Part shown: positions 22,333 to 57,712 of the stretch, one piece after another | Numbering within the stretch: position 1 is the stretch's first letter | Layout of the letters: each line of letters begins with the position of its first letter | NCBI RefSeq assembly: GCF_001761465.1 | Contig: NZ_CP017479.1 | Span: forward strand, 2,976,001 to 3,040,000 | Source: Flavobacterium gilvum | GTDB lineage: Bacteria > Bacteroidota > Bacteroidia > Flavobacteriales > Flavobacteriaceae | DNA: 64,000 bases | Direction: 5' to 3' | The notes under the pieces: generated by a model | What the model saw: the letters and a program-made list of their open reading frames with translations, nothing else | Told to the model about the DNA's origin: nothing | Database searches by the model: none | Program-made: the position numbers and the translations under genes

Positions 22333-24600
22333 CTATTTTTTCACTTCAATAGAATAAGGTCTATCTTTTATACTTGTTCCCCAACTTTTAGAAGGAGTCG
22401 CACCCATTGTAAAAATCAATTCACCACCTTTCATAATATCCGAATGAAGGATATAACTTTTAGTATAGTCTTTTCCGTTCAAAGTTGCTTTTTGTATATA
22501 AATATTTTTCGGACTATTGTTTACTGCTTTTACAGAAAAACTTTTGCCATTGGCCAAATTCAACACCGATTCATCCATTGATGGACTTCCAAAGACATAA
22601 ACCCCGTTGAAAGGATTCACAGAATACATTCCCATCGCGCTCCAAACATACCAAGCCGACATTTGTCCAACATCTTCATTTCCGCAAAGTCCATCTGGTT
22701 TATCACTGTATAAATTGTCAATAATGTAGCGTACTTTCTCAGCAGTTTTCCAAGGCTGACCCACAAAATTGTACATATACGTGATGTGGTGGCTTGGCTC
22801 GTTTCCGTGTGCGTATTGACCAATTAACCCTGTAATATCGTTGGAAGCTTCGGCTCCCATATCTCCTTTTGCAGTAAATAAATTATCCAGTTTATTGGTA
22901 AACTTTTTTTCTCCTCCCAACATAGCAATCAATCCTTCCACATCATGAGGTACCAACCAAGTGTACTGCCAAGCATTTCCTTCGGTAAAATCATCTTTCA
23001 TATGTGCCGATTTGAACGGATCAAATGGTGTTCTCCATTCTGTATCGCTCACTTTCCCACGGACAAAAGTTGTTGAAGCATCATAATATTTTTGATACGC
23101 TTTTGAACGTTTGAAGAAATAATTATAATCTTCGGTTTTCCCCATCTTCTTAGCCATCATAGCAATTGCGCCGTCTGCAATGGCATATTCCATTCCGATA
23201 GCTACTGATTCCTTCAATTTATCTGCAGGAATATACCCTAGTGTTTTTACATAATTCAATCCGCGATCATCCTGCATTGCTGTTGCTTTTACCGCTTCAA
23301 AAGCTAATTCTCCGTCAATTCCTTTTATTCCTTTCAAATAGGCATCGACTACAATTTGAATAGCACTATTTCCCGGCATACAATAGGTTTCATTCCCCAT
23401 CAAATGCCAAACCGGAAGATGCCCAGATTCCTTGTAAATCGCCAACATCGAATTAACAATATCCGAAACTCTTTCCTCTTGTGTTATTGTAAACAATGGA
23501 TTTGCACCACGATAAGTATCCCACAAAGAAAAAGTCGTCAAATTTGTAAAACCAGCCGATCTATGTACTTGTTTGTCCGTTCCATAATAATCACCATTGC
23601 TGTCGTTATAAATGGAGGGCGCAATCATCGTATGATAGAAAGCGGTATAGAACGTTTTCATTTTAGCATTATCATTTGTTTTTACCGCAATTTTGTTCAA
23701 TTCTTTGTTCCATTTTTCATCTGCTGTGGCGGCAACTTTTTCAAAATTCCAGCCAGGAATTTCTTTCTTGATGTTCATTAATGCATTTTCGGCACTCACC
23801 GCAGAAATCCCCACTTTGATTTTGATGACTTCGTCTTTTGAAGTAGAAAATTGAATTACCGCTTTGGCGCTGTCTCCCATAACCACTTTATTAATCATCT
23901 CTTTTGTATTATTGTACAATTGGATTTTCTTTGCGGGTTTTGACAAAATTGCTGTAAAATAAATACGTTGGTCCACAGCCCAGCCTTTTGAAAAACGATA
24001 CCCTTCGATCAAAGTGTCATTTTTTACACGGATATACGTATTGGCAGCTCTGTCCCAACCGATTCCCTCAACCAAATCCAAAATAATATGGGATTGATCC
24101 GAAGCCGGAAATGTATATTTTTGGAATCCTACTCTTTCAGAAGCCGTCATTTCGGCTTTTATTCCGTTCTTTTTCAAAATAACCGAATAATAGCCTGGTT
24201 TTGCAACTTCGTCCTTATGGTCAAATGAAGAAATATAACCATTCTCCATGTCTTTGGCAGTTCCTTTTTTCAAATTGATTTTACCAACAGCAGACATAAA
24301 TAGAACATCTCCAAGCTCTCCAATTCCTGTTCCGCTCAAATGTGTGTGCGAAAACCCAATAATTGTAGGATCTGAATAATGATATCCAGAACACCAATCC
24401 CAACCCTGTGAAATATTCACAGGACCCAGCTGAACGGCACCAAAAGGCACATTTGCCCCCATGAAAACGTGACCGTGGAATCCGGTTCCAATGAAAGGAT
24501 CTACATATTGTGTTAAATTTTGTTTGGCCGACTGACTGTGCATTTGCAAACAACAAAAAGCTGCCATTGTAATAAATGCGGATTTTAAATTTTTATTCAT
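22333..24600 (-). CDS. GH92 alpha-mannosidase (first copy)
   Basis: A 755-residue exported GH92 enzyme with a signal peptide ending near MHSQ. GH92 enzymes are calcium-dependent exo-alpha-mannosidases acting on high-mannose N-glycans and yeast mannan. Visible landmarks are VDPFIGTG at 33-40, the probable acid Glu540 in TEGNAWQYTW, the GNEPSHH loop at 599-605, and the probable base Asp643 in GNEDVGQMSAWY. Length is normal. It is the last gene of the operon, 30 bp after GH3 and before the T-tailed hairpin. The loop reads GNEP here but GNQP in the second GH92 of the cluster, so the two probably prefer different linkages. Periplasmic location is inferred. Confidence 0.93.
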   Translation of the reverse strand: MNKNLKSAFITMAAFCCLQMHSQSAKQNLTQYVDPFIGTGFHGHVFMGANVPFGAVQLGPVNISQGWDWCSGYHYSDPTIIGFSHTHLSGTGIGELGDVLFMSAVGKINLKKGTAKDMENGYISSFDHKDEVAKPGYYSVILKKNGIKAEMTASERVGFQKYTFPASDQSHIILDLVEGIGWDRAANTYIRVKNDTLIEGYRFSKGWAVDQRIYFTAILSKPAKKIQLYNNTKEMINKVVMGDSAKAVIQFSTSKDEVIKIKVGISAVSAENALMNIKKEIPGWNFEKVAATADEKWNKELNKIAVKTNDNAKMKTFYTAFYHTMIAPSIYNDSNGDYYGTDKQVHRSAGFTNLTTFSLWDTYRGANPLFTITQEERVSDIVNSMLAIYKESGHLPVWHLMGNETYCMPGNSAIQIVVDAYLKGIKGIDGELAFEAVKATAMQDDRGLNYVKTLGYIPADKLKESVAIGMEYAIADGAIAMMAKKMGKTEDYNYFFKRSKAYQKYYDASTTFVRGKVSDTEWRTPFDPFKSAHMKDDFTEGNAWQYTWLVPHDVEGLIAMLGGEKKFTNKLDNLFTAKGDMGAEASNDITGLIGQYAHGNEPSHHITYMYNFVGQPWKTAEKVRYIIDNLYSDKPDGLCGNEDVGQMSAWYVWSAMGMYSVNPFNGVYVFGSPSMDESVLNLANGKSFSVKAVNNSPKNIYIQKATLNGKDYTKSYILHSDIMKGGELIFTMGATPSKSWGTSIKDRPYSIEVKK

Positions 24601-24630
24601 TTTTATATTCTTTTCTCTTTATTCTTTTCT

Positions 24631-26811
24631 CTACTTCACAATCTCGAAACTCGCTTCCAATTGTGTATCTCTCGAATTCGAACCTATTTTTACAGTATAT
24701 TTTCCCTCATAAATTTGGAACTTTTTTTGAACTTCATCCCATTTTTGAAGCTCTTCCAACGGAATTTCCAAAGTAATATTTTGAGAATTCCTTTTGGTAA
24801 TAGACACTCGTTTAAATGCTTTTAGTTCTTTCAATGGCATTCTGTCCATTTTTGGATATTCAATGTACACCTGTGCCACTTCATCGGCATCATATTGTCC
24901 TGTGTTTTGAATTTTTATTTGCATCGAAATTTTGTTGGAAGTCTTTTTTACATTGTCGGGTTTTTGAAGCCAATTATAGTCAAAAGTAGTGTAACTCAAC
25001 CCAAAACCAAAAGGATACTGCACCTCTTTATTAAAATAACGATAAGTTCTGCCTCCCATCGCATAGTTGTTATAATCTGGCAAATCACTGAAGGATTTGT
25101 AGAACGTAATTGGTAAGTGTCCAGACGGAGAAACTTTACCAAAAATAAGATTGGCCAATGCAGTTCCTCCTTGTTCACCTGGATACCAAGCAAAAATTAT
25201 CGCATCCACATACGGTTCAATTGAAGAAACATCTACTGCTCCTCCGCCAGTAATCACTGCAACTATTGGAGATTTCGAACCTTTTCGCAGTGCTTTCATG
25301 TAGGCAATATGCGAAGCCGGTAATTCCATGTTTTTTCTATCACCTTTTCCATCGGCCAAGAAAGCATCACCTTCCTCACCTTCATAAACAGGATTGAATC
25401 CTATCACGGCAACGGTTAAATCAGACATTAATGAACCCCACATACCATTGAAACGTTGCGTATCGTTAAAGTCGCAGCCCATATCATATTCCACTCGTGT
25501 ATCTGGTGAAACTGCCCCAACAATTCCCTCTACAAAATTCACTGCTTTATCACTAATCCCGTGATAATTTCCCACCAAAGCATCAATTGATGCGGCATTA
25601 GGACCAACCACCATAATCGATTTGCATTTTTCTTTGTTTACTGGCAAAATGTTTGAGCCATTCACAAGACCATTTTTTAGCAAAACCATACTTTGTTCCG
25701 CCATTTTTCTACTTAGTCCAATGTGGTAAGAATTGGCAATACTGTCCACTCCATATTTTCTATAAGGATTGTCTTCGGGTTTATCATAGAATCCTAATTT
25801 GAATTGCGTGCGTAAAGAAGGCGCCAGTGCGTTGTCAATATCTTTTGTGGTTATTAATTTTTGTTCCAATGCTTTGATTGCGTCTTTTTGCAACAAATCA
25901 CTGCAATCCATATTCACACCGCCTTTGATTGCCGCCGCCGCAACAGCTACACTGTTTGGTAAAGCTTTGTGACTTTCGTAAATATCCTGTAATGCCCAAC
26001 AATCGGTTACGACATGACCTTTGAAACCCCATTCTTTGTGTAAAATATCTGTCAGCAACGTTTTTCCTGTACAACAAGGCTCCGAATTCACGCGGTTATA
26101 AGCACACATCACAGATTCAACATTGGCATCAACCAGTTTTTTGAAAGCATACAAGTAAGTTTCTCTCAAGTCCTTTTCATCGACGATTGCATTAAAAGAG
26201 TGACGACTGCTTTCGGGGCCACTATGTACGGCAAAATGTTTTGCACAAGCAGCCGTTTTCATGTATTTTGAGTTATCACCTTGCATTCCCTTTACAAAAG
26301 CAGTTCCCATCTTCCCAGTCAGGAAAGGATCTTCACCATAGGTTTCCTGACCTCTTCCCCAGCGAGGATCCCGAAAAATATTGATATTTGGTGACCAAAA
26401 ATTTAATCCCATATATTGCAAACGACGGTCTTTGGCAACAGCCATATTATTTTTGGCTCTAGCTTCGGTCGAAATAACCGTTGCAACTTCATGGAACAAT
26501 TCGTCATTGAAAGTAGCCGCCATTCCTATAGCCTGCGGGAAAACAGTTGCCCGTCCAGCTCTGGCAACACCATGCAAAGCCTCATTCCACCAATTATAGG
26601 CCGGAATTCCCAATCGCTCCACAGGTCGACTTTGAAAACCTATCAACGAAATTTTTTCCTGAACAGTAAGTTGTTTCAACAAATCTTCAACTCTTTTGTC
26701 AACAGGTAAATCCTGATTTTTGTATGCTGGTACTTTCTGTTGCGCAACAGTTATAACTGTATAAAAGCAAATTGACAGTACAATTGAAATCTTTTTCAAA
26801 TTTATTTTCAT
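24631..26811 (-). CDS. GH3 glycosidase, beta-xylosidase-like
   Basis: A 726-residue exported GH3 enzyme (signal peptide ending near VTVAQQ) with the two-domain GH3 core and a C-terminal fibronectin III-like domain. The nucleophile is Asp270 in VVTDCWAL. YNWWNEALHGVAR (72-84) and VMCAYNRVNSEPCC (234-247) are typical of the xylosidase/arabinofuranosidase branch of GH3, not the usual beta-glucosidase branch. In this setting, with mannosidases and PNGases, removal of the core beta-1,2-xylose of plant N-glycans is an attractive role but is inferred. It lies 112 bp from the GH120-like gene, with a candidate internal promoter in the gap. Confidence 0.9.
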   Translation of the reverse strand: MKINLKKISIVLSICFYTVITVAQQKVPAYKNQDLPVDKRVEDLLKQLTVQEKISLIGFQSRPVERLGIPAYNWWNEALHGVARAGRATVFPQAIGMAATFNDELFHEVATVISTEARAKNNMAVAKDRRLQYMGLNFWSPNINIFRDPRWGRGQETYGEDPFLTGKMGTAFVKGMQGDNSKYMKTAACAKHFAVHSGPESSRHSFNAIVDEKDLRETYLYAFKKLVDANVESVMCAYNRVNSEPCCTGKTLLTDILHKEWGFKGHVVTDCWALQDIYESHKALPNSVAVAAAAIKGGVNMDCSDLLQKDAIKALEQKLITTKDIDNALAPSLRTQFKLGFYDKPEDNPYRKYGVDSIANSYHIGLSRKMAEQSMVLLKNGLVNGSNILPVNKEKCKSIMVVGPNAASIDALVGNYHGISDKAVNFVEGIVGAVSPDTRVEYDMGCDFNDTQRFNGMWGSLMSDLTVAVIGFNPVYEGEEGDAFLADGKGDRKNMELPASHIAYMKALRKGSKSPIVAVITGGGAVDVSSIEPYVDAIIFAWYPGEQGGTALANLIFGKVSPSGHLPITFYKSFSDLPDYNNYAMGGRTYRYFNKEVQYPFGFGLSYTTFDYNWLQKPDNVKKTSNKISMQIKIQNTGQYDADEVAQVYIEYPKMDRMPLKELKAFKRVSITKRNSQNITLEIPLEELQKWDEVQKKFQIYEGKYTVKIGSNSRDTQLEASFEIVK

Positions 26812-26864
26812 TTTTCTTTTTGGAATTATTTATAATCACAAAGAATTCTTCACTCTATTTTTTT

Positions 26865-26896
26865 CAAAAATACTAAATCGTTTTACTTGATAACAA
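26865..26896 (-). promoter_or_regulatory. Candidate internal promoter before GH3
   Basis: On the minus strand TTG (26896-26894) is followed after 21 bases by TATTTTTG (26872-26865), matching the Bacteroidota TTG/TAnnTTTG promoter form. It would start about 46 bases before the GH3 ATG. AT-richness makes chance matches common. Confidence 0.4.
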
Positions 26897-26923
26897 TTTA
26901 ATTTGAAAATCAATAAACAACTT

Positions 26924-28825
26924 TTACCAAACTTGCAATTTCTCAATCCTATTTCCTTTCTTTTCAAAAGCTCCCGCGGAAGGATTGGAATCAGAACGCT
27001 TATTTCCCAAATAATCTGTATCAATTTTTAATGGCGTACCATCTGGGTTTTCAAATTTCCCTTTGGAAACAGTTGTTTTTCCTAACAAATCAGTAGTAAC
27101 CATCTTTGTATTCAAACCCGAATCACTAGCAACATTATAAGAAATAAAAACTTTATCTCCTTCCTCTGTCAAAGAAAACTTAGGATTCAGAGTTTTGTTT
27201 TCGATAAAATTAACTTCTTTAAAATAAGGAATTGCTCCTCCATAATAAATATTCCCGTCCACCGAAGCCGGTAATTTAGCTTTTTTGTAATCGTCCAATC
27301 CAAATTTTTGATCTGCCGGATAGCTTTCTCCCTTCAATTCTTTTTTAGTTAAAAAAATATTATTGTAAAAACGGTCGTCTCCGGGAACAATCTCCGATAA
27401 ACCTTTAATTTCCGTAGAATGTTCCAAATGATAAGGCGTGGATCTCGTTTGATTCAGCCCCAATTCAAATGTTCCGGCAATCAAATTATGAACAACTGCG
27501 CCTCCAGTAGACTGAAGATTAATTGCATTTTCAGAAAGTAAAAGATTATTATCAATCAAATATGGACCATGATCAACTTCGGCATAAATATCTTGCCAAG
27601 TGTTGTCATACATTAGGTTTCTTGAAATTCTTGTTCCTTGAGTCATCCAATCCAACCAAATTCCAGGACCATCAACCGAGTTAACACGATTATGAATAAT
27701 TTGCGTATCGATTGGCGCATGGAGTTTTATTCCGCCTAATTCGGCACCACCAAATTGCTTTTTTTGATGAATATTAAAAACATGATTGTTTTCAATTGTG
27801 CTAAAAACAGCTCCCATGCTCCCACAAATTCCTGCCTGTTCGCAGTTATAAATTTTATTGTTTCTTACAATATGTGAACCAATATTTTCTTTGTTCCAGC
27901 CATTTTTCAATACTTTAAAAATAACTTCTATATAATGAATATTACCATCATTAAAAACATTTCCCAAATCTTGAGTCCAAACGTTATGACCCGTTTTTCG
28001 CTCTTTTCCAAGTGTAATCCCCACGCATTTTGAATCGTGAATAATATTGTTTTCAATTATCCATCCTTTGTTCCAATGTGTGGCCACCATACCTACTTGC
28101 TCTGCCGTTGGAGCTCCCCATTGAGTTGCCGCCTGACTAAAATCAAATCCGCTGATGGTGATGTAATTGAGTCCTTCGCTTTCAGGGTAAAAACAGGTTT
28201 TACGGATGCTTACTTCTGTCAATTCTTTATTAGGGTTGCGTGTCTGGAAATTGGCCCAAATCGTTGTTGTTTGTTCGTTGCTTTCGGCATACCAACCATA
28301 AAGAGTACTAACTTTGTCTTTTACCTTTTCGTCTTCCACGGGATACTTTACCAATTCTATTTTATTTCTTTCAAAAAGTGATTTTCCCCCGATAAAGATA
28401 TCGCAGGTATGAATTTTAGCATTATTATTACACCAATCTCCGGCTACATAATCTTTGAAAGGATTGTAATCCCCGAAAAAAGAATTAGGAATCACAATTG
28501 TCCAAACTTCATCATCCACTTTTTTCCAGCCGGTCAAAACTTCAGAGCCTTTGATTTCGACTTTTTCTCCATCAGCGGCTTTGTAAATAATTCGTTTAGA
28601 ATCACTCTCTCCTCCATTTTTTGGATTGATTCTTTCACGATACGTCCCTGCATGTACAATCACAATATCACCCGCAACAGCAATTTGAGCTGCATGGTTA
28701 ATTGTCTTGAATGGTTTTAATATTGTTCCTTCATTTGTATCATTCCCTTTAACAGACACATGTATTTCTTTTGCCGAAAGGCTTACTGTCGCTAAAGCAA
28801 AAAACATTACTATTTTTTTTATCAT
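26924..28825 (-). CDS. GH120-like beta-xylosidase, parallel beta-helix
   Basis: A 633-residue exported protein (signal peptide ending near LSAKE) with a right-handed parallel beta-helix. The N-terminus (HVSVKGNDTNEGTILKPFKT, then the PNSFFGDYNP segment at 113-122) and the long WLDW...EVDHGP stretch match the GH120 family as I remember it; the type member is a bacterial beta-xylosidase. Candidate catalytic acids are Asp392 (WLDWM) and Glu416 (YAEVDHG). Beta-helix proteins also include lyases and GH141-type enzymes, so the family call is good but not certain. It sits between the DUF4838 gene (42 bp) and GH3 (112 bp). Confidence 0.78.
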   Translation of the reverse strand: MIKKIVMFFALATVSLSAKEIHVSVKGNDTNEGTILKPFKTINHAAQIAVAGDIVIVHAGTYRERINPKNGGESDSKRIIYKAADGEKVEIKGSEVLTGWKKVDDEVWTIVIPNSFFGDYNPFKDYVAGDWCNNNAKIHTCDIFIGGKSLFERNKIELVKYPVEDEKVKDKVSTLYGWYAESNEQTTTIWANFQTRNPNKELTEVSIRKTCFYPESEGLNYITISGFDFSQAATQWGAPTAEQVGMVATHWNKGWIIENNIIHDSKCVGITLGKERKTGHNVWTQDLGNVFNDGNIHYIEVIFKVLKNGWNKENIGSHIVRNNKIYNCEQAGICGSMGAVFSTIENNHVFNIHQKKQFGGAELGGIKLHAPIDTQIIHNRVNSVDGPGIWLDWMTQGTRISRNLMYDNTWQDIYAEVDHGPYLIDNNLLLSENAINLQSTGGAVVHNLIAGTFELGLNQTRSTPYHLEHSTEIKGLSEIVPGDDRFYNNIFLTKKELKGESYPADQKFGLDDYKKAKLPASVDGNIYYGGAIPYFKEVNFIENKTLNPKFSLTEEGDKVFISYNVASDSGLNTKMVTTDLLGKTTVSKGKFENPDGTPLKIDTDYLGNKRSDSNPSAGAFEKKGNRIEKLQVW

Positions 28826-28867: not shown

Positions 28868-31117
28868 TTATTTCACTACAATTTCATCGATAAAAACCCA
28901 GGATTTTGAACCTGCTGAAGGATGCCATTGCGGTAATTGCTTTGTTCCTTTTACTTCAAATTTGACATAACGAATGTTTTTTTGCGGAGCATTAAATAAA
29001 AAAACTTTATTGACATCTGCTTTTTCCTGATTACCTTCGGTCTGAATATTTCCAACTTCGGTAAAATCTTTACCATTTTCCGAAACCAGACAACGAACAC
29101 CAGCCGGATGAAGTATCCAACTTTTGGCATCCCAAAGCGAGCTGATTTCTATTGTTTTTGCTTTGACAGTTTTCTCTAAATCGAGAGTTAAATCAAAATC
29201 AATTCCATCCCAGCCCAACCAATGCACTTTATAATTACTGTCACCTCTTACACCATTTGTCAAATAAGCCAAATCTCCTTTACTGTATTGTGGAGAAGGT
29301 GTTTGACTTGAAGTTACTTTTTTCTTAAATGAAAGATTTCCTTTTACCTGAACATCAATAAATCTTTTGGTGCTTTCGTAGTACGACTTCGGTGTCAATC
29401 CCGATTCATTTAAATGATCAATATTAGCTTGATTACAAACCGAATAGAAATCTTCTATCATTTGTACTTTTTCGGGAATTACTGTGTAATCACCATTTTT
29501 TTCGGTATACCAACCCCGTGGACCAAACATATCATTTTTACCTATTTCCATAATAGCAAACTGCAATGGTAATCGAGCCACTTTTACATGTAGTAACTGC
29601 GTTGCGTCGTTTTGGGCAGCTTTTTCGGCATTATCAAAAAAAGTATTGTATTCATTGATATTGTTCTGTGAAAGAAACGTATTCTGATGACTTGTTGGAT
29701 GTTCGTAAATATCCAGTCCATCCCCACTTTTCTTTAATTCACTTTCCAATTTTTCAATATATTTTTTTATCCAAGGAGATGCTTTACCATAATAACCCTC
29801 CAAAAATTCATTTGTAATCTGACTCACATCGGCATTTGGATTCCACAATAAACGGGAAAGCAAATACACCTTCAGTTCCGAGAATTCAGATCCCACCGAA
29901 GCATTGGCCTGTTGAAAATGAGCTGAAACATTATTTTTTACAAAAAATTGAATATTTGGCTGCAACACGTGTAAATTTGGAAAAGGACTCACAGAATTGG
30001 CAAAATCAATATCGTAATCCCACAAATAAATATGATTGCAGATTTTTCCCCACTCAATTATATCATTCTTAAATGATTCGCTCCCTTTGTCGTCTTCAAT
30101 AGCTTTGCTTCGATTCAATTCGATAGTACAAAGCATTACCTGAACATTTTTGGCAGGTTTCGTAATAAGAGGCGCTTTTCTCGAATATTCGTAAGCCAAA
30201 GTCGAGATAATTTTATCCGGAAATTGTTTGGCTACTTCATTTACAAAACGAATAATTGGCCCAGACGGACTTCCTTCTTCAGCGATAATTTTACTGCATT
30301 TTTCGCATTGGCAATACGAAAAATTATCATTCTGACTTACCGACCAATAGTTCTCATTTGACTGAAGAGCCATTTCTTTTTTCAGTTTTTCAATTGTCAA
30401 TTTCAAGACATCGGGATTTGACAAACACAACTGATCGATATTTCTTTTGCCATTCATTTCTGAGAAATATTCTGGATGCGTTTTGAAATATTCCTGCCAC
30501 GGAACCAATTTCCCAAAAGTATGCACATAATAGCCTTCGGCAAAAATTTCGTCAACACTATTAAGTCGATTCCAATCATAAAATTCCTGCCCCACTTTGT
30601 CAACGATGTAAACAATTCGGCAATCGTTTTTGGGTGCGTCTGTCAGATTAATTTCGGGTAAATTAATGTTTTTATTAAAAGGAATATCCTTGTAAGTTGC
30701 ACTGTAATTACGGCATCCCATGTACTTTTCCAGCAAAGTTACCACACCATAAATACATCCTTTTTTGGAACCGCCTTCAATAAAAAGCGATTCATTTTTT
30801 GTCTTTATCGAAAATCCATCTGGATTTTGTATGGCATTGGAAATATTGATATAAATTGCCTTTTTCCTTTTTACCAATTGATTTGAAATCGGAAGTCCAA
30901 AACCCGAAATTTGAGAAACGTATTTTTGCAAAAGCAAAGCTGCTTTCTTTTCCGATTCGGTTTCCTTTGACGAAATTACAATTACATAATCGCTTTTCCC
31001 ATTGGTTACAAGAGGAATAGTTTTACTATAAGAATTAAACTGAAAAGGAAACAACAGCAAACAGAATAATACTTTCAAACTATTTACTGACTTAAATTGG
31101 TTACTACTATTTTTCAT
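28868..31117 (-). CDS. DUF4838 protein, putative glycosidase
   Basis: A 749-residue exported protein. I start at 31117 (MKNSSNQFKSVNS), which gives a signal peptide ending near NSYSK; an upstream in-frame Met 13 codons earlier seems less likely. Residues about 25-135 resemble the N-terminal non-catalytic domain of alpha-glucuronidases (GH67/GH115-like). The centre is DUF4838, with an internal CQCEKCSK cysteine cluster. The last 140 residues look like a discoidin-type (F5/8) carbohydrate-binding module ending WVFIDEIVVK. DUF4838 proteins have no activity I can name with confidence. Its operon neighbours suggest a glycosidase acting on N-glycans or linked plant glycans. Confidence 0.75.
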   Translation of the reverse strand: MKNSSNQFKSVNSLKVLFCLLLFPFQFNSYSKTIPLVTNGKSDYVIVISSKETESEKKAALLLQKYVSQISGFGLPISNQLVKRKKAIYINISNAIQNPDGFSIKTKNESLFIEGGSKKGCIYGVVTLLEKYMGCRNYSATYKDIPFNKNINLPEINLTDAPKNDCRIVYIVDKVGQEFYDWNRLNSVDEIFAEGYYVHTFGKLVPWQEYFKTHPEYFSEMNGKRNIDQLCLSNPDVLKLTIEKLKKEMALQSNENYWSVSQNDNFSYCQCEKCSKIIAEEGSPSGPIIRFVNEVAKQFPDKIISTLAYEYSRKAPLITKPAKNVQVMLCTIELNRSKAIEDDKGSESFKNDIIEWGKICNHIYLWDYDIDFANSVSPFPNLHVLQPNIQFFVKNNVSAHFQQANASVGSEFSELKVYLLSRLLWNPNADVSQITNEFLEGYYGKASPWIKKYIEKLESELKKSGDGLDIYEHPTSHQNTFLSQNNINEYNTFFDNAEKAAQNDATQLLHVKVARLPLQFAIMEIGKNDMFGPRGWYTEKNGDYTVIPEKVQMIEDFYSVCNQANIDHLNESGLTPKSYYESTKRFIDVQVKGNLSFKKKVTSSQTPSPQYSKGDLAYLTNGVRGDSNYKVHWLGWDGIDFDLTLDLEKTVKAKTIEISSLWDAKSWILHPAGVRCLVSENGKDFTEVGNIQTEGNQEKADVNKVFLFNAPQKNIRYVKFEVKGTKQLPQWHPSAGSKSWVFIDEIVVK

Positions 31118-31190
31118 TTGGTTTAGGTTAGCAAAAAAACATAAAGATGAAGCCAATTACAACATAAATTAGCTTCATCTTAATTTTATT

Positions 31191-47833: not shown

Positions 47834-48586
47834 TCAAATTGTACGTTTAATTTCTATCGTATAGGTAAACCAATCATTGCGGTAATAACAAATATTATAT
47901 TCAATTGGTTTTCTAGCTGTGTCGAGAACCACACGCCTTCTTTCGAGTACGGGTTGGTCTTTTTCGATTTTCAAATGCCCCGCAATTCGTTTACTGGCTG
48001 CAATCGCTTTGAGTTCTTCCTGAGAATACACGGGAACCACATTAAATTTGTTACCTAATATTTCGTATAGAGGGATTTCAAAATTTTCATCAGCCGAGAT
48101 ACCAATTCTAGGATGAAAATACGATTCGAAATACACCATCGGGCTATCGTCAATGCTTCGGGTTCTTTGCAAGAGCAACACTTCATCACCTTCTTTAAGT
48201 TGCAAATGTTTGGCTACTTTGGCGGACGCCAAAACCATTTCGGCTTTCAACGAAAGATTTTTGAATTCCAATCCCATATCTTCCATTTCATGAGTAAAAC
48301 TCATCCAATTGTTTAAATTGGTTGTAATCCTGTTTTGAGAAACACGGGTTCCAGAACCTTTCTTTCGCACCAAAAGATTTTCGTTTACCAAAATAGCAAT
48401 TGCCTGACGAAGTGTGTTTCTGGAAATACCCCAGCGCTTAGCCAAATCAACTTCTTTTGGAAACAATTCGCCATCTTTAAAGTCGGGATGTTTAATCAAT
48501 TCACGCAATAATTCTTCCACTTGCTTATGCAATGGAATCTTGCTGTCATGATCCAGTAGCGGTAATTTGTTCAAATGTTCATACAT
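47834..48586 (-). CDS. GntR family regulator with UTRA ligand-binding domain
   Basis: A 250-residue regulator. Residues about 15-85 are a winged helix of the GntR type (PLHKQVEELLRELI, FPKEVDLAKRWGISRNTLRQAI, VRKKGSGTRV). Residues about 100-245 form a UTRA sensor domain, which binds a sugar or sugar phosphate in known members. It heads the minus-strand operon and faces the second PNGase gene, so it probably represses both directions until a glycan-derived sugar phosphate binds. Mannose 6-phosphate, made by the fusion protein, is a natural guess for the ligand. That is inference. This control differs from the hybrid two-component systems and ECF sigma factors usual in Bacteroidota loci. Confidence 0.9.
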   Translation of the reverse strand: MYEHLNKLPLLDHDSKIPLHKQVEELLRELIKHPDFKDGELFPKEVDLAKRWGISRNTLRQAIAILVNENLLVRKKGSGTRVSQNRITTNLNNWMSFTHEMEDMGLEFKNLSLKAEMVLASAKVAKHLQLKEGDEVLLLQRTRSIDDSPMVYFESYFHPRIGISADENFEIPLYEILGNKFNVVPVYSQEELKAIAASKRIAGHLKIEKDQPVLERRRVVLDTARKPIEYNICYYRNDWFTYTIEIKRTI

Positions 48587-48876
48587 ATCACAAAAATAGT
48601 TTTTTTATCTAATGAAAAAAAATATTTAACAAAAATACAACCAATTGATTTTTAACAGTATTTAACAAATTTCAATTTAAACTAAAACGTTATAGCATTA
48701 TCAATTGATTTTCAGCAAATAAGAAATAAAAGACATCTTTTTGATGAAATAAAACTAATATGTTCATACTTAGATTTGAAAAATAATTATATTTGTTTTT
48801 TCGATAAAACGATTTAGCAAATAAATCCAAATTTTAACCAATTCCCCTTCCAAAACCACTTTAATAAAACTTTATA
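48587..48876. promoter_or_regulatory. Divergent control region, gntR and second PNGase gene
   Basis: Between the two divergent genes I see a repeated CAATTGATTTT at 48642-48652 and 48702-48712 and a repeated TATTTAACAAA at 48623-48633 and 48659-48669. For the minus strand, TATTTTTG lies at 48637-48630, about 44 bases before the gntR ATG. For the plus strand, TATATTTG lies at 48788-48795. The matching upstream TTG boxes are weak. The repeated words are the best operator candidates for the GntR protein. Confidence 0.5.
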
Positions 48877-50612: not shown

Positions 50613-51944
50613 ATGAAAAAAATTGCACTTAGTCTACTATTATGTTCCATGCTTTCGACAGGCATACAGGCACAAACATATACGCCAACTGAGGGAAACC
50701 TGAAAAACAGAACAGAATTCCAGAATGATAAATTTGGTATGTTTATTCACTTTGGCCCATATAGTGTTTTGGGTAACGGCGAATGGATTATGACCAATCA
50801 AAACATCAAAGTAACCGAGTACGGGAGATTGATAAATGTGTTCAACCCACAGGATTTTGATGCCAAAAAATGGGTTGGAATCGCCAAATCTGCAGGAATG
50901 AAATACATCACTTTCACAACACGCCACCACGATGGATTTAGCAATTTTGACACCAAATTATCTGATTGGAAAATTACAAACACCCATTTTAAAAGAGATT
51001 TATTAAAAGAATTGGCTGACGAATGTCATAAACAAGGCATCAAATTATTCTGCTATTATTCACTTTTGGACTGGACAAGAACCGATTATCAATACGAAAC
51101 CGGTAAAACAGGAAAAGGAACAGGCAGAACTCAAAAAAGCGATTGGGAAAGCTACATCCGTTTTATGAAAGGTCAGTTGACCGAATTGTTAACCAATTAT
51201 GGAGAAATTGGCGGAATCTGGTTTGATGGACATTGGGATCAATTGGACAATGACACCGACAAAAAATTACAGTCAAAAGTAAACTGGCATTATGATGAAA
51301 TCTACAAATTGATTCACTCACTTCAACCCAATTGTTTAATTTCAAACAATCACCACCTTACACCACTTCCAGGAGAAGATTTTCAAGCATTTGAAAAGGA
51401 TTTACCAGGCGGAAACACATCTGGTTTTGGTGGACAATCCGTTTCTCAACTGCCTTTGGAAACCTGCGAAACAATGAACAATTCATGGGGTTTCAACATC
51501 AATGACAGAAAATACAAATCGACCAAAGATTTATTACATTATTTAATCAATGCGGCGAGTTTGAATGCCAATTTCCTTTTGAATGTTGGCCCAATGGCTG
51601 ACGGAACAATTCAACCAGAGTTTGTACAAACTTTGAAAGAAATGGGAACTTGGATGGATAAAAACGGAAGTAGTATTTACGGAACCAGAGGTGGCGTAAT
51701 GAAAACCCAAGATTGGGGAGTATTTACTGCCAAAGACAAAACTTGGTTTGCACATATTATCAACACTCCAAAACAGCCAGGTTATATTTTTATTCCTGAA
51801 ATGAAACAAAAAATCAAAAAATGTTATTTGATGGAAAATAAAAAGGAACTGAAATTCAAACAACTGCCAGAAGGAACTTTTGTGTATTTGGATGGCGTAC
51901 AAATAGATCCTATCGATACGATAATTCAAATGGAAATACAATAA
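50613..51944 (+). CDS. GH29 alpha-L-fucosidase
   Basis: A 443-residue exported GH29 enzyme with a signal peptide ending near GIQAQ. The catalytic TIM barrel shows FGMFIHFGPYS (41-51), FTTRHHDGFSNFDTK (101-115), and the nucleophile Asp205 in GGIWFDGHWDQ. A short beta-sandwich closes the protein. GH29 removes alpha-linked fucose; location beside two PNGases suggests core alpha-1,3- or alpha-1,6-fucose of N-glycans. It follows the second PNGase by 62 bp and ends in a strong terminator, so the two form a small plus-strand unit. Confidence 0.93.
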   Translation: MKKIALSLLLCSMLSTGIQAQTYTPTEGNLKNRTEFQNDKFGMFIHFGPYSVLGNGEWIMTNQNIKVTEYGRLINVFNPQDFDAKKWVGIAKSAGMKYITFTTRHHDGFSNFDTKLSDWKITNTHFKRDLLKELADECHKQGIKLFCYYSLLDWTRTDYQYETGKTGKGTGRTQKSDWESYIRFMKGQLTELLTNYGEIGGIWFDGHWDQLDNDTDKKLQSKVNWHYDEIYKLIHSLQPNCLISNNHHLTPLPGEDFQAFEKDLPGGNTSGFGGQSVSQLPLETCETMNNSWGFNINDRKYKSTKDLLHYLINAASLNANFLLNVGPMADGTIQPEFVQTLKEMGTWMDKNGSSIYGTRGGVMKTQDWGVFTAKDKTWFAHIINTPKQPGYIFIPEMKQKIKKCYLMENKKELKFKQLPEGTFVYLDGVQIDPIDTIIQMEIQ

Positions 51945-51990: not shown

Positions 51991-52010
51991 AAAATTAATT
52001 CTCAAAATAG

Positions 52011-52979
52011 ATGTTCAAAAAAATCTTTTTTCTCTGTGCCTTAGCTTTGGTAGTTACTGAAAATAGCAATGCACAATCAACATTTTCTTCCGAAAAATTC
52101 ATGAAACACGACCGTTATTTGGCTTCAGATAAATTGGAAGGTCGTCTTGCCGGAACAAAAGGTAACAACGAAGCTGCAGCTTATATCAAAAAACATTTCA
52201 AGAAATTCGGTTTAAAAAAATTCAACAACGATTATTATCAGCCGTTCAAAATTTTTATAAAACCCAATATCAACAAAATGAAATCGGATAGCGTAAATAC
52301 GCAAAATGTTGTTGGCTATATCGAAGGTTCTGATGAAAACCTGAAAAAGGAATTCATCGTGATTGGTGCGCATTACGATCACTGGGGATGGGGAGGAAAA
52401 GGATCCGGAAGCAAGAAAAAAGACACGTTGGCAATCCATAACGGAGCCGATGATAACGCTTCGGGGGTTTCGGCATTGTTGTCTATTTTAGAAGAATTTC
52501 AGAGCAAAAAGATTAAAACCAAGAGAAGCATTATTTTCATCTCTTTCAGTGGTGAAGAAGAAGGATTATTGGGTTCAAAATATTTTGTACATCACCTACC
52601 AGTTGATAAAAACGCTGTAAAAGTAATGATTAACATGGATATGGTTGGGCGATTGAATGATAAAAAAGAACTCTATATGGGAGGTGCAGGAACTTTTCCT
52701 AACGGTGTTGAGTTGATGAAAAAATTAGGTGAAGGCAGCGGATTGAATCCGATTGTGTTTGCTGGAGATGTGGGAGGTTCTGACCACGTTACATTTTATA
52801 AAAATAACATATCGGCTGTTGGATTACACACTGGCGGACATCCGCAATACCACACACCCGAAGACGATTCTGATTTGATAAACAGCCAAGGAGCAGTTTT
52901 GGTTTGCCAATATATTTACAATGCTTTGACTGCTATTGCTAACTATGAACAACCGTTAATTTTTATCAATCAAAATTAA
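52011..52979 (+). CDS. M28 family metallo-aminopeptidase
   Basis: A 322-residue exported M28 peptidase with a signal peptide ending near SNAQS. The double-zinc site is visible: GAHYDHWG (first ligands), GADDNASGVSALL (bridging Asp), SFSGEEEGLLGS (catalytic and metal-binding Glu pair), NMDMVGR and the late YHTPEDD. Such enzymes remove amino acids from peptides. It starts 20 bp after the GH29 terminator tail and on the same strand, so it has its own promoter or relies on read-through. It would suit the peptide part of deglycosylated glycoproteins, which is an inference. Confidence 0.9.
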   Translation: MFKKIFFLCALALVVTENSNAQSTFSSEKFMKHDRYLASDKLEGRLAGTKGNNEAAAYIKKHFKKFGLKKFNNDYYQPFKIFIKPNINKMKSDSVNTQNVVGYIEGSDENLKKEFIVIGAHYDHWGWGGKGSGSKKKDTLAIHNGADDNASGVSALLSILEEFQSKKIKTKRSIIFISFSGEEEGLLGSKYFVHHLPVDKNAVKVMINMDMVGRLNDKKELYMGGAGTFPNGVELMKKLGEGSGLNPIVFAGDVGGSDHVTFYKNNISAVGLHTGGHPQYHTPEDDSDLINSQGAVLVCQYIYNALTAIANYEQPLIFINQN

Positions 52980-53006
52980 ATTTTAGCCCATATTTATTTA
53001 ATAAAG

Positions 53007-53054: not shown

Positions 53055-53076
53055 GTAAAATGAAGAATATAATTTT

Positions 53077-54630
53077 TTATTTATCCCACCATATTCTAGT
53101 TACAAAAAGGTCTGGTCCCTGTTGTGCAACTGCAGCGTTATAATTGGCTGTGTTCAATGTACGTTCAGAATCTTTATATATCAAACGTCTCGGAATTTGA
53201 CCATTTGAAACATTTCCCGGATAATTAACCGGTACTAAATTTGGATAACCAGTTCTTCTATAATCTGCATAAGCTTCAAGTCCGTTGAATAGGAAAAACG
53301 CAATCCATTTTTGAGTAATAATTTGCTGAATCTTTTGAGCTGTTGTTCCTATTGAGAATGGATTTGCCAATAGATATGTTGAAATTTCAGCATTTGTAAT
53401 AATTGGCACTTTACCATTTCCAGTCCCGTATACAGCTAACATTTGCATTGCAGCCGTAACTCCACTGTCATAATAAGTCTTAGCATTACCTGAATCCCAT
53501 CCTCTTACAGCTGCTTCGGCTTTTAATAATTGTGTTTCTGCATAACTTATTCTAATATCCGGAGCATCCTCACGAGCGATAGTCAAACGATTTGGAAAAG
53601 AATAATCTTGTTTGCCTGTGAAATTTGGATAGGTTTTGATTGTTTCATCGGTATATCCATTTGGCATTCCTTTTTGATGAGTCGGATCGACATCATAATT
53701 ATTATTTGAAATTACGATATTCGAAAGCACTCTCATTCTTGGATCTTGGGTGCTTTTTAACAAATCTATAAATGTTTTACTGATTTTTTCTCCTTTTTGA
53801 GGATCATCAACAGTACCATCCGTTAGGAAATTATAAATAACTGGATTAACTGTAAATTGAGAACCGCTTTTATGCAAGCAAACCATGTTATCACTATTTG
53901 ATGCAAATACACCTCCAGCAATTGCTTTTTTAACATATTTTTCTGCATTTACAGCATCAGCTTTTGAAATACGCATTCCTAAACGTAACATTAAAGAATA
54001 TGTAAATTTCCTCCAATTTGTAACATTACCGCCATAAAGCACATCAGCATTACCATAGAAAGGTTTACTTTCATTAAAAGCAAGTGCCGATTCATCAAGC
54101 TCTTTCAACATATCCATATAGATATCTTGCTGTCTGTCGTACTTCGGACTCCAAATCCCATCAAGATATCCTTTTCCTGCCTGAGAATAAGGAATATCGC
54201 CATATAAATCGGTGATTTGATGAAACATATACACTTTAATTACTCTAGCGGCACTAATTTTATTAACATTCTCAGGAGTATTAGGTATTACTGATAGTAA
54301 ATGTGTAATTTCTTTAATTCCGTTCTCATATTCCTGAAAAAAACCACCTGATGTATTATCTTCATACAGATATTTATCTCCATGAAATTGATTTGTTCTA
54401 AGTGATGCCAAATGTTGCATAGCCAAACTAACAAACTGAATATCTGCCTGATAATGTGAATACTGAAATCCTCTCATCAACACTTCATTGTTAGTAAACA
54501 TCGAATTGATATCTGCCTGTGTATAAGCATTTGGGTTCTGATTCATTTCTTCAAATCCTCTATCACAGGAAGTCAGTGAAAAAACACATCCTATACCAAT
54601 GCCAATATATTTTTTGAATTTGTTTTTCAT
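53077..54630 (-). CDS. SusD/RagB-like lipoprotein, pair 1
   Basis: A 517-residue SusD-like glycan-binding lipoprotein of the PF12771-type group. The signal ends in a lipobox (LTSC, Cys22), followed by DRGFEEMNQNPNAY, the usual SusD opening. DLYGDIPYSQAGKG and WRKFTYSLMLRLGMRIS are family landmarks, and ISYAETQLLKAEA marks the TPR-like scaffold. It should sit on the outer membrane as the lid of the SusC transporter encoded just upstream (16 bp gap). The sequence does not tell the ligand. Location beside N-glycan enzymes suggests N-glycans or glycopeptides. Confidence 0.93.
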   Translation of the reverse strand: MKNKFKKYIGIGIGCVFSLTSCDRGFEEMNQNPNAYTQADINSMFTNNEVLMRGFQYSHYQADIQFVSLAMQHLASLRTNQFHGDKYLYEDNTSGGFFQEYENGIKEITHLLSVIPNTPENVNKISAARVIKVYMFHQITDLYGDIPYSQAGKGYLDGIWSPKYDRQQDIYMDMLKELDESALAFNESKPFYGNADVLYGGNVTNWRKFTYSLMLRLGMRISKADAVNAEKYVKKAIAGGVFASNSDNMVCLHKSGSQFTVNPVIYNFLTDGTVDDPQKGEKISKTFIDLLKSTQDPRMRVLSNIVISNNNYDVDPTHQKGMPNGYTDETIKTYPNFTGKQDYSFPNRLTIAREDAPDIRISYAETQLLKAEAAVRGWDSGNAKTYYDSGVTAAMQMLAVYGTGNGKVPIITNAEISTYLLANPFSIGTTAQKIQQIITQKWIAFFLFNGLEAYADYRRTGYPNLVPVNYPGNVSNGQIPRRLIYKDSERTLNTANYNAAVAQQGPDLFVTRIWWDK

Positions 54631-54646
54631 CTTTGCTTTTCTTTAA

Positions 54647-57600
54647 TTAAAACTTAATATTAAGATTTATCCCAACGCTCTTCGTTCTCGGCAAAGTAGA
54701 TTGCTCATATCCCTGAGCATTACCACTATTTGAGTTTGATTCAGGATCAATATTGGGTGTGTCTTTGTAAATCACCCATAAATTATGTGCTACAAGTGCC
54801 AATGACAGCCCTTCTATACCAAATTTGCTTAATTTTTCTTTATCAAATTTATATTCTAAAGAAACAGATCTCAATTTTACAAAATCGGAAGAATAAACAA
54901 ATACATTTGAATTTGCATCTTTGAAAGAAGATCTCCAATAATCAAATGCACTAATGTTTTTATTTATTGGATTCCCAGCATTATCAACACCACTAACATT
55001 GATACCTCCTTCTCTTCCTTGCAAAGTCATTGCTTGCAATCCATATCGCACAGATAAAAAGTTTGTATCCGAAAAAATATCTCCTCCTAGCTGAGCATCA
55101 ATTAGAGTTGAAAGTCTCCAATTTTTATATGTAAAATCATTAGTTAATCCCATTCTGTATGGTGCAACTCCATCTCCTGCGTGAACTAATTCCCCTTTCT
55201 GCATATATCCATCATTAGTCAATACTAAGTTTCCTTTTGCATCTTTTAAAGGTTCGTAAGCTTTAATAATTCCAAAAGGCTGACCTTCTTCAAGATAAAT
55301 ACCTCCTACTCCTCCCAAATTTGTCAAAATTTGAGAATTTAGTTCATCAGAAACTTTAACTACCTTACTTATATTATAAGACAAATTGTAATTTACATCC
55401 CATTTGAAATTTTCTTTTTTAATTGGAATACCCCCTATTTGTAATTCAATACCTTTATTACTAATTTCTCCAACATTAATTTTAGTGTTTGCATAACCAG
55501 ACGTAGTTGATAAACTCGCATTGGCAATATCATTTGTGGTAGTTTTACTATACCAAGTAAAGTCCAAATTTAATCTATTGTTAAAGAAAGTATTTTCGGT
55601 ACCAAACTCAATCGTTTGCACATTATACGGTTTTAAGGCCGGATTTGGAATTGTACCTTGCTCAACCTCTGTAATAGGCAAACCATTAAAACCATCCCCT
55701 ATAGGTCGATACGTTAAACTCAATGCATATGGTTCTGGTGCAGCTCCACCAACATTACCAATCGCAGCTCTTAATTTGCTATAGCTCCAAAATTCAGGTA
55801 ACTTTACTACTTCAGACACTACAAAACTGGAACTAACGGAAGGGTAAAAAATATGGTTATTTGAAGTACTCAAAGTAGAAAACCAATCATTACGCCCTGT
55901 AAGCGATAAGAAAAGAAAGTTTTTATATCCCACGTCACCAGAAAAATAAACAGAATTAACTTCAGTATTCGATTCAAAAATTGTCGTTTTCTGGTTATCT
56001 TTAGTATTAGCATAAAAATATTGGTAAGGAATTATAAAATTAGATCCACCAGAACTTGTTTCTTTATAGTAATTGTGTTGACGGTTGGCTCCGACAAATG
56101 CATTAACGTCAAAATCCCCAAAAGTCTTTTTATATCCTAAAATACCTTCCAAGTTATATTCAGATCTTGTATTAATAAGGTTATCGAATCTTCCGTTAGG
56201 GCCATCAACTGCTCCAGTTGGTTCAATTCGTGTGGCATCAAATCCTGTATAATCTTCACCAATTTTTACTTTAGCATAAAAATCTTCTGATATATTATAA
56301 GTTGTTGCAGCCGACAAAATGAATCTATTTTTAGAATCAAAGTTTTTAAAATACTGTGTGACAAAATAAGGATTGTTAATGCCTCCCCAACCTTGAGTAT
56401 AAGGATATTCATTTCCATTTTCATCAACGACAGGATCAGACATCCATAAAATATCAATACTATTTGATAAGAAGTTCATAGCCTTATTGACATTTCCAAA
56501 ACCTCCCCCAATAAGTGGTCTGTTATTACCATCTTCTCTAATGTATTGTCCACTTGCCTCAATAGAAATTTTATCGTTTGGTTTTGCGCTCAGCGACAAT
56601 GCATAGTTGTTTCTCTTATAAGTATTTTCAGGGGTAATACCATCATTATAAACATTACCGATTGAGAAACGGAAATTAGCTTTCTCACTTCCGCCACTGA
56701 ATGCAATTGTGTTCGAATTTGTAAATCCAGTTTGATAAAATTTTTGAATTTGATTTGGTCTTGCTACGTAATCGTGCATTTCACCGTCTATAGAAAGCGT
56801 TGGAAGCCCATCAAATTTTGGTCCCCAAGCCAAAACATAATCACCACGCAATGTTGCAAGATCAGTAAACTTTTGACCTCTGGAACCTTGCCCGTATTGA
56901 TATTGCCATTCTAAATCATTCTGAACCATATCTAAAGAAACACCAGAACTAAATTCAACACCAAGCCCTTTTGAAGCAGTACCTTTTTTGGTTGTAATCA
57001 AAATTACCCCATTAGATCCTCTGTATCCATATAATGCCGATGCAGAACTACCTTTCATCACAGACATAGTGGCTATATCGTCAGGATTCAAAGAACTCAT
57101 CCCATCACCCATATCTGTAGAACTACCTGGACTTTTGAATCCGCTATTATCAACGGGGATACCGTCGATTACGTACAAAGGTTGGTTATTTCCAGAAGCC
57201 GAAGTGTTTCCTCTAATTACCACTCTGGTAGATCCCCCAACACCTGTTGCTGGAGTAGTAACGTTCACACCGGCAACGCGGCCAGAAAGAGCACTCCCTA
57301 GATTGACCACTTTATCCTTATTAATATCTTCATTTTTCAAACCTCCAACGGCGTAACCTAAACTTCTTTTTTGTTTTTTAACGCCTAAAGATGTTACTAC
57401 CACTTCTGTCAATTCCTGAGTTAAAGTCTGCATTTGAACTTGTAAATTATCCGCTGCAGCTGCTTCTGTCGATTTATAACCTACTGAAGTGAAGACAACA
57501 GTATCACCAGGTTTGACAGATAATCTAAACATTCCGTTCTCATCTGTAATTGAACCCGATGTCCCTCCCTTTACTTTTACGGTTGCCCCCAAAACAGGCC

Positions 57601-57712
57601 GTCCTTTCTCATCCGAAACCACTCCGGAAATTGTCTTATTTTGTGCATTCGCACCATGAAAGCACAATACTATTAGAAAAACTAACAGGAATTCATTCAT
57701 AAGTTTTCTCAT
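54647..57712 (-). CDS. SusC/RagA-like TonB-dependent transporter, pair 1
   Basis: A 1021-residue outer-membrane transporter. Order: signal peptide (ending near GANAQN), carboxypeptidase-regulatory-like domain at about 25-95 (ISGVVSDEKGRPVLGATVKV), TonB box region VTSLGVKKQKRSLGYAV, plug domain at about 115-235 (VVIRGNTSASGNNQPLYVIDG), then a 22-strand barrel ending NLNIKF. It forms an operon with susD (16 bp). About 760 bp of non-coding DNA with two perfect palindromes lies upstream. No ECF sigma or anti-sigma gene is adjacent. Confidence 0.94.
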   Translation of the reverse strand: MRKLMNEFLLVFLIVLCFHGANAQNKTISGVVSDEKGRPVLGATVKVKGGTSGSITDENGMFRLSVKPGDTVVFTSVGYKSTEAAAADNLQVQMQTLTQELTEVVVTSLGVKKQKRSLGYAVGGLKNEDINKDKVVNLGSALSGRVAGVNVTTPATGVGGSTRVVIRGNTSASGNNQPLYVIDGIPVDNSGFKSPGSSTDMGDGMSSLNPDDIATMSVMKGSSASALYGYRGSNGVILITTKKGTASKGLGVEFSSGVSLDMVQNDLEWQYQYGQGSRGQKFTDLATLRGDYVLAWGPKFDGLPTLSIDGEMHDYVARPNQIQKFYQTGFTNSNTIAFSGGSEKANFRFSIGNVYNDGITPENTYKRNNYALSLSAKPNDKISIEASGQYIREDGNNRPLIGGGFGNVNKAMNFLSNSIDILWMSDPVVDENGNEYPYTQGWGGINNPYFVTQYFKNFDSKNRFILSAATTYNISEDFYAKVKIGEDYTGFDATRIEPTGAVDGPNGRFDNLINTRSEYNLEGILGYKKTFGDFDVNAFVGANRQHNYYKETSSGGSNFIIPYQYFYANTKDNQKTTIFESNTEVNSVYFSGDVGYKNFLFLSLTGRNDWFSTLSTSNNHIFYPSVSSSFVVSEVVKLPEFWSYSKLRAAIGNVGGAAPEPYALSLTYRPIGDGFNGLPITEVEQGTIPNPALKPYNVQTIEFGTENTFFNNRLNLDFTWYSKTTTNDIANASLSTTSGYANTKINVGEISNKGIELQIGGIPIKKENFKWDVNYNLSYNISKVVKVSDELNSQILTNLGGVGGIYLEEGQPFGIIKAYEPLKDAKGNLVLTNDGYMQKGELVHAGDGVAPYRMGLTNDFTYKNWRLSTLIDAQLGGDIFSDTNFLSVRYGLQAMTLQGREGGINVSGVDNAGNPINKNISAFDYWRSSFKDANSNVFVYSSDFVKLRSVSLEYKFDKEKLSKFGIEGLSLALVAHNLWVIYKDTPNIDPESNSNSGNAQGYEQSTLPRTKSVGINLNIKF

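Follow-up and report, generated by a model that had tools for sequence, protein, structure and literature searches.

Gene content and extent of the island

The stretch of DNA analysed here, referred to below as the window, comprises 64,000 nucleotides of Flavobacterium gilvum (bases 2976001–3040000 of contig NZ_CP017479.1, assembly GCF_001761465.1, a single-contig genome of 4,402,594 bases). It contains a group of glycoside hydrolase (GH), peptide:N-glycanase (PNGase) and SusC/SusD-type transporter genes that is probably (we would put it at roughly 70%) the left-hand portion of a large Flavobacterium locus for the use of N-glycans, directed at glycoproteins with a plant-type core, i.e., one carrying core alpha-1,3-fucose and beta-1,2-xylose. 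Domains were assigned by Pfam and NCBIfam scans of the window proteins, to which PDB matches were added. A preliminary description of the sequence had placed a plant N-glycan locus between 22333 and 57712. The Pfam scan recovered all the genes that it named where it had put them, together with four that it had passed over: a DUF4838 protein, a 430-amino acid (aa) protein, a phosphoesterase and an isomerase-like gene.

The main block is a leftward run of about 26 kb, in which 13 genes follow each other on the reverse strand with gaps of 9–127 bases, from a GntR/UTRA regulator (47834–48586), the first gene of the run, to the GH92 enzyme GH92a (22333–24600). Between them come, in this order, PNG_A, a PNGase F-superfamily protein with C-terminal modules (45897–47807; 69 bits to PNGase F), a ROK sugar kinase fused to a ManA-type mannose-6-phosphate isomerase (43197–45863; PDB match of the ManA part, 65.7 bits), a sugar porter of the major facilitator superfamily (41704–43140), a sugar isomerase-like TIM barrel (40879–41694; AP_endonuc_2, under the Pfam cut-off), a protein with beta-propeller and phosphoesterase domains (38313–40751), a GH38-type alpha-mannosidase of 1114 aa (34913–38257; GH38 N-domain 36.8 bits, cut-off 25), the GH92 enzyme GH92b (32499–34880; lipobox recognised by eye), the 430-aa GH94-like stand-alone (alpha/alpha)6 protein (31191–32483), a protein combining DUF4838 (GH163-type, 357 bits), GH20b and F5/8C domains (28868–31156), a GH120-like beta-helix protein with the GH120 insertion domain (26924–28825), and a GH3 (24631–26811) that is of beta-xylosidase type by similarity and scores under the NCBIfam equivalog cut-offs. 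Divergent from this run, on the forward strand, are an orthologue of PNGase F-II (48877–50550), a GH29 alpha-L-fucosidase (50613–51944) and an M28 peptidase (52011–52979). A SusD-type protein (53077–54630; lipobox recognised by eye) and a SusC-type TonB-dependent transporter (54647–57712), both on the reverse strand, are convergent on the peptidase gene. As already described, GH18 and GH20 genes are absent from the window: the genome has two GH18 and eight GH20 places, none of them inside it.

The boundary proposed at 57712 cuts the locus, because genes of N-glycan families continue to about position 3,110,500 of the genome, giving an island of 112 kb. Still within the window and on the reverse strand, a second pair starts at 60993, with SusD2 (60993–62594) and the C-terminal part of SusC2 (62619–63989), whose full gene (L009:2619-5945) crosses the window end. 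To the right of the window, where the scanned proteins were part of the gene set, follow the rest of SusC2, a LacI gene, a third SusCD pair, a second LacI, GH3, GH20 (C1:3053297-3055546), a third PNGase (about C1:3055590-3056780; the last two span 13–17 kb past the window end), GH92 and a DUF5703/GH95-like protein. After these come GH3 with PA14, GH38, GH29, GH2, GH110, a short-chain dehydrogenase/reductase and another GH29, and farther right a GH2 that carries a mannosidase Ig domain, followed by GH92 and other genes. The island thus brings together a SusCD pair, a glycan-releasing enzyme, exo-glycosidases and a regulator, the combination by which N-glycan utilisation loci of Bacteroidota are recognised. 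The best reading is that the window part belongs to such a locus, and it is predicted to be induced by N-glycoproteins or needed for growth on them.

PNGases, glycosidases and the conserved core

The clearest indication of the target glycan comes from the PNGase F-II orthologue. It aligns over its full length with Elizabethkingia PNGase F-II (PDB 4R4X, 4R4Z; 657 bits to 4R4X), found in a different species and genomic setting, and it also matches 7zgn (438 bits), the enzyme of Bacteroides massiliensis (PMC12381499). It has the N-terminal bowl-like (NBL) domain (PF22252, 224.6 bits) in addition to the catalytic domains. Acceptance of core alpha-1,3-fucose by PNGases is decided by a glycine at the position of Glu118 of PNGase F (PMC9522356), and counting along the alignments places Gly370, within FIGNYD, at that position; this residue equals the published Gly380 under an assumed numbering offset. 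Glycine and NBL domain make it a type II (group 2) PNGase, for which cleavage of core alpha-1,3-fucosylated glycans is predicted. The third PNGase has Gly189 at the same position, and PNG_A has Thr139, beside a three-residue insertion where the alignment is ambiguous. By these alignments, the blocking acid is present in none of the three island PNGases. PNG_A contains the aromatic-Asp-aromatic motif (W76-D77-Y78) and the catalytic Glu (E222); across 13 sequences, W76, Y78 and E222 do not vary and D77 hardly does (one relative, L033, was left out for its ambiguous letters). Its C-terminus resembles, by eye, a type IX secretion system (T9SS) sorting domain, and by its description the PNGaseL of F. 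akiainvivens, a PNGase F-superfamily enzyme with a small C-terminal module and a T9SS signal (PMC12381499), seems alike. Distant relatives of PNG_A (27–29% identity) are spread over many further families of this order, with a match at 1e-15 in 42 of 150 genomes and in 22 of 35 genera, some of them inside open frames of more than 1100 aa.

Among the exo-glycosidases, GH92a has its closest solved relatives in 6f91 (643 bits) and 6f8z (632), ahead of 7zgm (601); a GH92 alpha-1,3-mannosidase for plant N-glycans would be marked by a pocket that takes beta-1,2-xylose. The best PDB matches of GH29 were 9eu1, 9eu4 and 9eu2. The protein at 28868–31156 is provisionally of GH163 type, the equation of GH163 with DUF4838 coming from one table entry (PMC9870897); a GH163 enzyme of B. 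thetaiotaomicron cleaves GlcNAc-beta-1,2-Man (PMC10154615).

We searched for PNGase F-II, PNG_A and the 430-aa protein in a sample of 150 related genomes, F. gilvum included. PNGase F-II was present, at 50% identity or more and nearly full length, in 33 of them. In one genome (G017), homologues of GH29, GH29b, GH2 and PNG_A (70–77%) are on the same contig as PNGase F-II, 60–75 kb away. A core of the island was found in ten named Flavobacterium genomes that share one common arrangement. In a recount over all the stretches fetched for these genomes (identity of at least 55%; misses may reflect contig ends and fetch limits), PNGase F-II, GH29, M28, SusC2, SusD2, ROK-ManA, the sugar porter, GH92b and the 430-aa protein were present in all ten. 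GntR, GH3 and GH92a were present in nine, the exception in the stretches fetched being Flavobacterium sp. A45, where the locus is split over two contigs. LacI and GH29b (eight genomes each), the long GH38 and GH3PA14 (seven each), GH2 (six) and GH29c (three) were less constant, as was PNG1, which is in four of the loci and on another contig in a fifth genome. LacI was not seen in what was fetched from F. saccharophilum DSM 1811, one of the relatives with the core. A45 was the only one of the ten with GH163, the isomerase-like gene or GH20 (one locus each), and the isomerase-like gene was also seen in L088 and L118. GH120, PNG_A, the phosphoesterase, the SusCD pair at 53077–57712, GH92c, GH38b, GH110 and the third SusCD pair were in none of the ten loci. 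The identity of PNGase F-II in these Flavobacterium was 83–87%, and together with Sphingobacterium lumbrici (53%) and Pedobacter nyackensis it was present in 12 of 12 whole genomes. PNG_A was found in only one of those 12, S. lumbrici (61%).

The preliminary proposal of N-glycan use, with a core bearing alpha-1,3-fucose, is therefore supported, because the PNGase F-II orthologue (657 bits, Gly370) is kept in syntenic loci together with GH29 and M28 (10/10) and GH3 (9/10). Its suggestion that the GH120-like protein acts as a second N-glycan xylosidase has lost ground. That gene is weak evidence for N-glycan xylose, since all ten Flavobacterium loci lack it and only two of the 80 best loci of the 430-aa gene have it (see below), and since two GH120-like paralogues are in another region of the genome with two GH43 genes.

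A shared palindrome and the probable regulators of the island

An alignment of ten genomes (F. gilvum included) revealed conserved blocks of the form CTAAAwCGwTwTAG in the gap between GntR and PNGase F-II. CG-centred palindromes of this kind are typical of LacI-family operators. Two putative LacI-type operator sites are located in this divergent promoter region (48682–48694 and 48805–48817), one lies 62 bp upstream of GH3 (26873–26885), one overlaps the phosphoesterase gene at its annotated start (40735–40747), and another, with one mismatch to the 15-mer, is about 203 bp upstream of SusC (57914–57928). With up to one mismatch allowed, the 15-mer matched 11 times in the window, where 2.5 matches would be expected, and none of 100 shuffles reached 11; these matches represent eight distinct places, five of them at promoters of the locus. 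A slightly looser pattern gave 11 distinct sites over a 150-kb stretch, one inside a GH20 gene and the others in nine promoter regions in all: before GH3, SusC, SusC2, SusC3, LacI2, GH29c and a 731-aa gene (start 3,110,477), at the phosphoesterase start, and two between GntR and PNGase F-II. Genome-wide, the strict 13-mer had 14 matches, nine in the island (0.36 expected), three in a second region of carbohydrate-active enzymes (CAZymes) and two elsewhere.

The palindrome recurs in the relatives. A looser pattern matched 52 times in the ten Flavobacterium loci, 42 of the matches being within 450 bp upstream of an island gene and ten not (two inside genes). The distances also recur, with 223–244 bp to SusC2 in eight relatives (269 in F. 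gilvum), 57–59 bp to LacI in seven (142 in A45, 56 in F. gilvum) and 38–40 bp to GH3 in six (62 in F. gilvum). The ten genomes hold 112 distinct 13-mer sites, and 45 of these were within 30 kb of PNGase F-II, when 1.3 would be expected if evenly spread. As a reference, none of 300 column-permuted motifs reached the 40 hits of the motif in the stretches of the relatives (mean 0.6, largest 14), nor the nine of the F. gilvum island (mean 0.2, largest 5).

The preliminary description had put the whole locus under the GntR regulator. The locus turns out to be larger, its conserved SusCD is the next pair along, and the shared promoter site is LacI-operator-like. The LacI Pfam domain is found in the gene at L009:6320-7333, of which the genome has a second copy, 91% identical. 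Four genomes (L203-L206) have two extra sites around a LacI paralogue (60–61%), a ManA-like gene and a SusCD pair; in L203 this locus also has GH97 and an AraC-type gene by Pfam. The accessory SusD and SusC of our window are 46–48% and 51% identical to the SusD and SusC of this second LacI/ManA locus. The palindrome thus travels with LacI genes and is a putative operator. GntR as the sole master regulator, with the CG-centred palindrome as its own operator, would fit with the two sites in the GntR promoter region and with its position at the head of the 26-kb run. Against this, the palindrome precedes a LacI gene by 56–59 bp in F. gilvum and by similar distances in its relatives (seven of them, plus A45 with 142 bp), and in the four genomes it lies beside the LacI/ManA/SusCD locus with no GntR homologue in the 15–16 kb fetched. 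We consider GntR alone an unlikely explanation and joint control by a LacI-type regulator the more likely one.

In the second CAZyme region (L048-L050, genome 3452001-3512000), a palindrome copy precedes the SusC gene by about 430 bp. The region contains GH123-like, GH43, two GH120-like, GH38 and GH20-like genes, a second copy of the GH94-like gene, and a run of six proteins of 730–780 aa without Pfam match.

The probable target glycan, the 430-aa protein and known systems

Gene content, the ten-species core, the PNGase residue and the shared palindrome are read directly from the DNA, and on them we base the following proposal for a pathway. Glycopeptides would enter via SusC2/SusD2. PNGase F-II, and PNG_A probably outside the cell, would cut the glycan from asparagine, and the M28 peptidase would trim the peptide. 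Antennary N-acetylglucosamine could be removed by the GH163-type and GH20 enzymes and alpha-mannose by GH92a, GH92b and GH38, after which GH3 would take off the beta-1,2-xylose and GH29 the core fucose. The remaining mannose would fall to the 430-aa GH94-like enzyme, and the core would be finished by the products of GH2 and GH20 genes farther right in the island. Mannose would be taken in by the sugar porter and converted into fructose-6-phosphate through the ROK-ManA fusion. The LacI-type regulator acting on CTAAAwCGwTwTAG would probably exert joint control over the operons, and GntR would add a second switch that acts locally.

The 430-aa protein is the least conventional member of this scheme. 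Its match to the Pfam GH94 catalytic domain is of 40 bits (cut-off 27). GH94 phosphorylases have an N-terminal beta-sandwich before the barrel and a phosphate-binding His. The 430-aa protein has no such N-terminal domain, as alignments to known barrels cover residues 29–430, and when its NGGDWTW is aligned by hand to NGNVYCH of the GH94 protein of L187, the His would correspond to Trp360, in a part that the automatic alignment does not reach: in the profile comparison of the two proteins only residues 136–207 were aligned, with a probability of 35%. The catalytic barrels of GH94, alkaline/neutral invertase, GH116, GH63 mannosylglycerate hydrolase and rhamnosidase are 13–17% identical to it, and it differs from all of these by its recurrent setting with mannose genes. 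Among the 150 relatives it was found at 1e-20 in F. gilvum only, in two copies, and in a sample of the phylum it was present at 1e-10 in five of 395 genomes, F. gilvum included in both. A scan of named genomes gave at least 469 relatives, of which the 80 best loci were kept, ten of these being the Flavobacterium loci. The closest matches listed there were from Flavobacterium (91% identity in A45), and GH92, GH38 or kinase-isomerase genes were near the gene in 61 of the 80 loci, across Bacteroidota. We predict that the protein is a mannoside hydrolase. According to PMC9522356, no enzyme had been reported for the removal of alpha-1,6-mannose from the trimmed core. A wider proposal, to be taken as tentative and on balance rather doubtful, is that the protein defines a new family of inverting (alpha/alpha)6 mannoside hydrolases that belongs to mannose modules throughout Bacteroidota, that in this locus it removes the alpha-1,6-mannose remaining after the core has been trimmed, and that the island and the second CAZyme region form one LacI-controlled regulon for this glycan type.

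Several observations weigh against the island being a jointly controlled locus for plant-type N-glycans. PNGase F-II had no further island CAZyme within about 9 kb in 20 of 21 neighbourhoods, which were those of 20 of the 32 other PNGase F-II genomes plus that of G060 (43%), the only one of the 21 that had such enzymes. GH120, GH163, PNG_A, the phosphoesterase, the SusCD pair at 53077–57712, GH92c, GH38b, GH110 and GH20 are outside the shared core, and the specificities of GH3, GH29 and GH92 are those assigned by family. Three of the eight places of the 15-mer in the window are off locus promoters (two inside GH92 genes, one at 19706), and one palindrome of the island is inside a GH20 gene. 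A reversed control pattern had 16 matches in the F. gilvum genome against 14 for the motif, and it outnumbered the motif in six of the ten relatives and was less frequent in four; only the placement of the palindrome is unusual, not the genome totals. To these can be added the GH110-type (GLAA-B) gene of the island (L010:15188-17005), a misfit with a plain plant N-glycan.

This last gene would suit an animal diet, in which the same machinery is used on invertebrate rather than plant glycoproteins. Among the species with the 430-aa gene are F. cutihirudinis, Pseudarcicella hirudinis and S. lumbrici, names that we take to point to leeches and earthworms, and S. lumbrici has both PNG_A (61%) and PNGase F-II (53%). 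Group 2 and type II PNGases also cleave an insect glycoprotein (PMC9522356). The xylosidase-type GH3, kept in nine of the ten Flavobacterium loci, speaks for plant material, and we regard the animal diet as improbable, even though the sequence alone does not choose between a plant and an invertebrate (or algal) source of such a core. Much less probable still is that the locus serves the use of alpha-mannan or xylomannan (yeast mannan, glucuronoxylomannan or an algal mannose-rich polymer), with the PNGases as passengers. A polymer bearing mannose and xylose would suit GH92, GH38, GH3 and GH120, and in the 70 loci outside the ten Flavobacterium among the best 80, no PNGase was found in the flank of the 430-aa gene and GH92 or GH38 was found in 44. 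In marine Flavobacteriia, mannose-rich polysaccharide utilisation loci (PULs) have been read as alpha-mannan or N-glycoprotein loci (PMC6298971). What argues against a mannan is the presence of PNGase F-II, GH29 and M28 in all ten Flavobacterium loci, the further PNGase in the island, and the lack of GH76 and GH125 among those island proteins, a part of the total, that were scanned with Pfam. Utilisation of glycoproteins with a plant-type core is the reading that we prefer.

Similar systems have been described before. Bacteroides (Phocaeicola) massiliensis has, as here, a type II PNGase with NBL domain and glycine, and SusCD, its PNGase, GH92, GH3 and GH29 acting in sequence (PMC9522356). There the genes are spread over three loci, while here they form one larger island, which adds the kinase-isomerase fusion, the sugar porter, M28, the 430-aa GH94-like enzyme, DUF4838 and the shared palindrome. 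The arrangement had been suggested to be possibly new, which should be taken with caution: more extensive loci with SusCD, GH29, GH3, GH130 and GH92 around group 2 PNGases are reported from B. helcogenes and B. vulgatus (PMC9522356), so that the grouping of plant N-glycan genes as such is known, and what is novel here is the palindrome that links many operons, together with the 430-aa enzyme family. In the N-glycan cluster of Xanthomonas campestris, GH92 acts on core alpha-1,3-mannose and GH29 on core alpha-1,3-fucose, families also present here (reviewed in PMC10154615). The Bacteroides and Xanthomonas loci were likened to ours by their description, not gene by gene. The Gpd system of Capnocytophaga canimorsus is likewise a SusCD-type N-glycan locus outside Bacteroides; it uses an endo-beta-N-acetylglucosaminidase on host glycoproteins and consists of surface lipoproteins, with no PNGase among the five gpd genes as described there (PMC3128124). 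The PULs of the North Sea Flavobacteriia are GH92-rich, with N-glycosylated glycoproteins suggested as target, and they are from marine isolates; PNGase is unmentioned in the passages that deal with them (PMC6298971). In Runella zeae, a PNGase gene probably shares an operon with genes for fucosidases, a mannosidase, GH18 and an asparaginase, and most of the six genes in that study were called orphans, unlike the PNGases here (PMC12381499).

Plant N-glycans are common in the diet and are known allergens (PMC9522356). The bacterial routes for their use described in the literature cited here are mainly those of gut Bacteroides and Xanthomonas. A locus present in at least ten Flavobacterium species and probably under joint control would put most of the pathway in one place. 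Its regulatory site predicts further members, namely the second CAZyme region and the LacI/ManA/SusCD locus of four relatives, and the 430-aa enzyme family provides a clear, assayable prediction of activity.

Other features of the window include an 800-aa protein (58477–60879, reverse strand) that adjoins SusD2 and has no Pfam or PDB match. Over 41% of its length it is about 25% identical to a protein encoded in the second CAZyme region, one with a sub-threshold Melibiase match, and from this likeness it is possibly an enzyme of clan GH-D type. An open reading frame of 2986 aa is followed by a PorP/SprF-type and an OmpA-family protein (2408–11368 and 11507–15201, forward strand), an arrangement often associated with type IX secretion. 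A Flavo-1 RNA (RF01705, 70 bits) is located directly downstream of GH92a (22117–22208, reverse strand).

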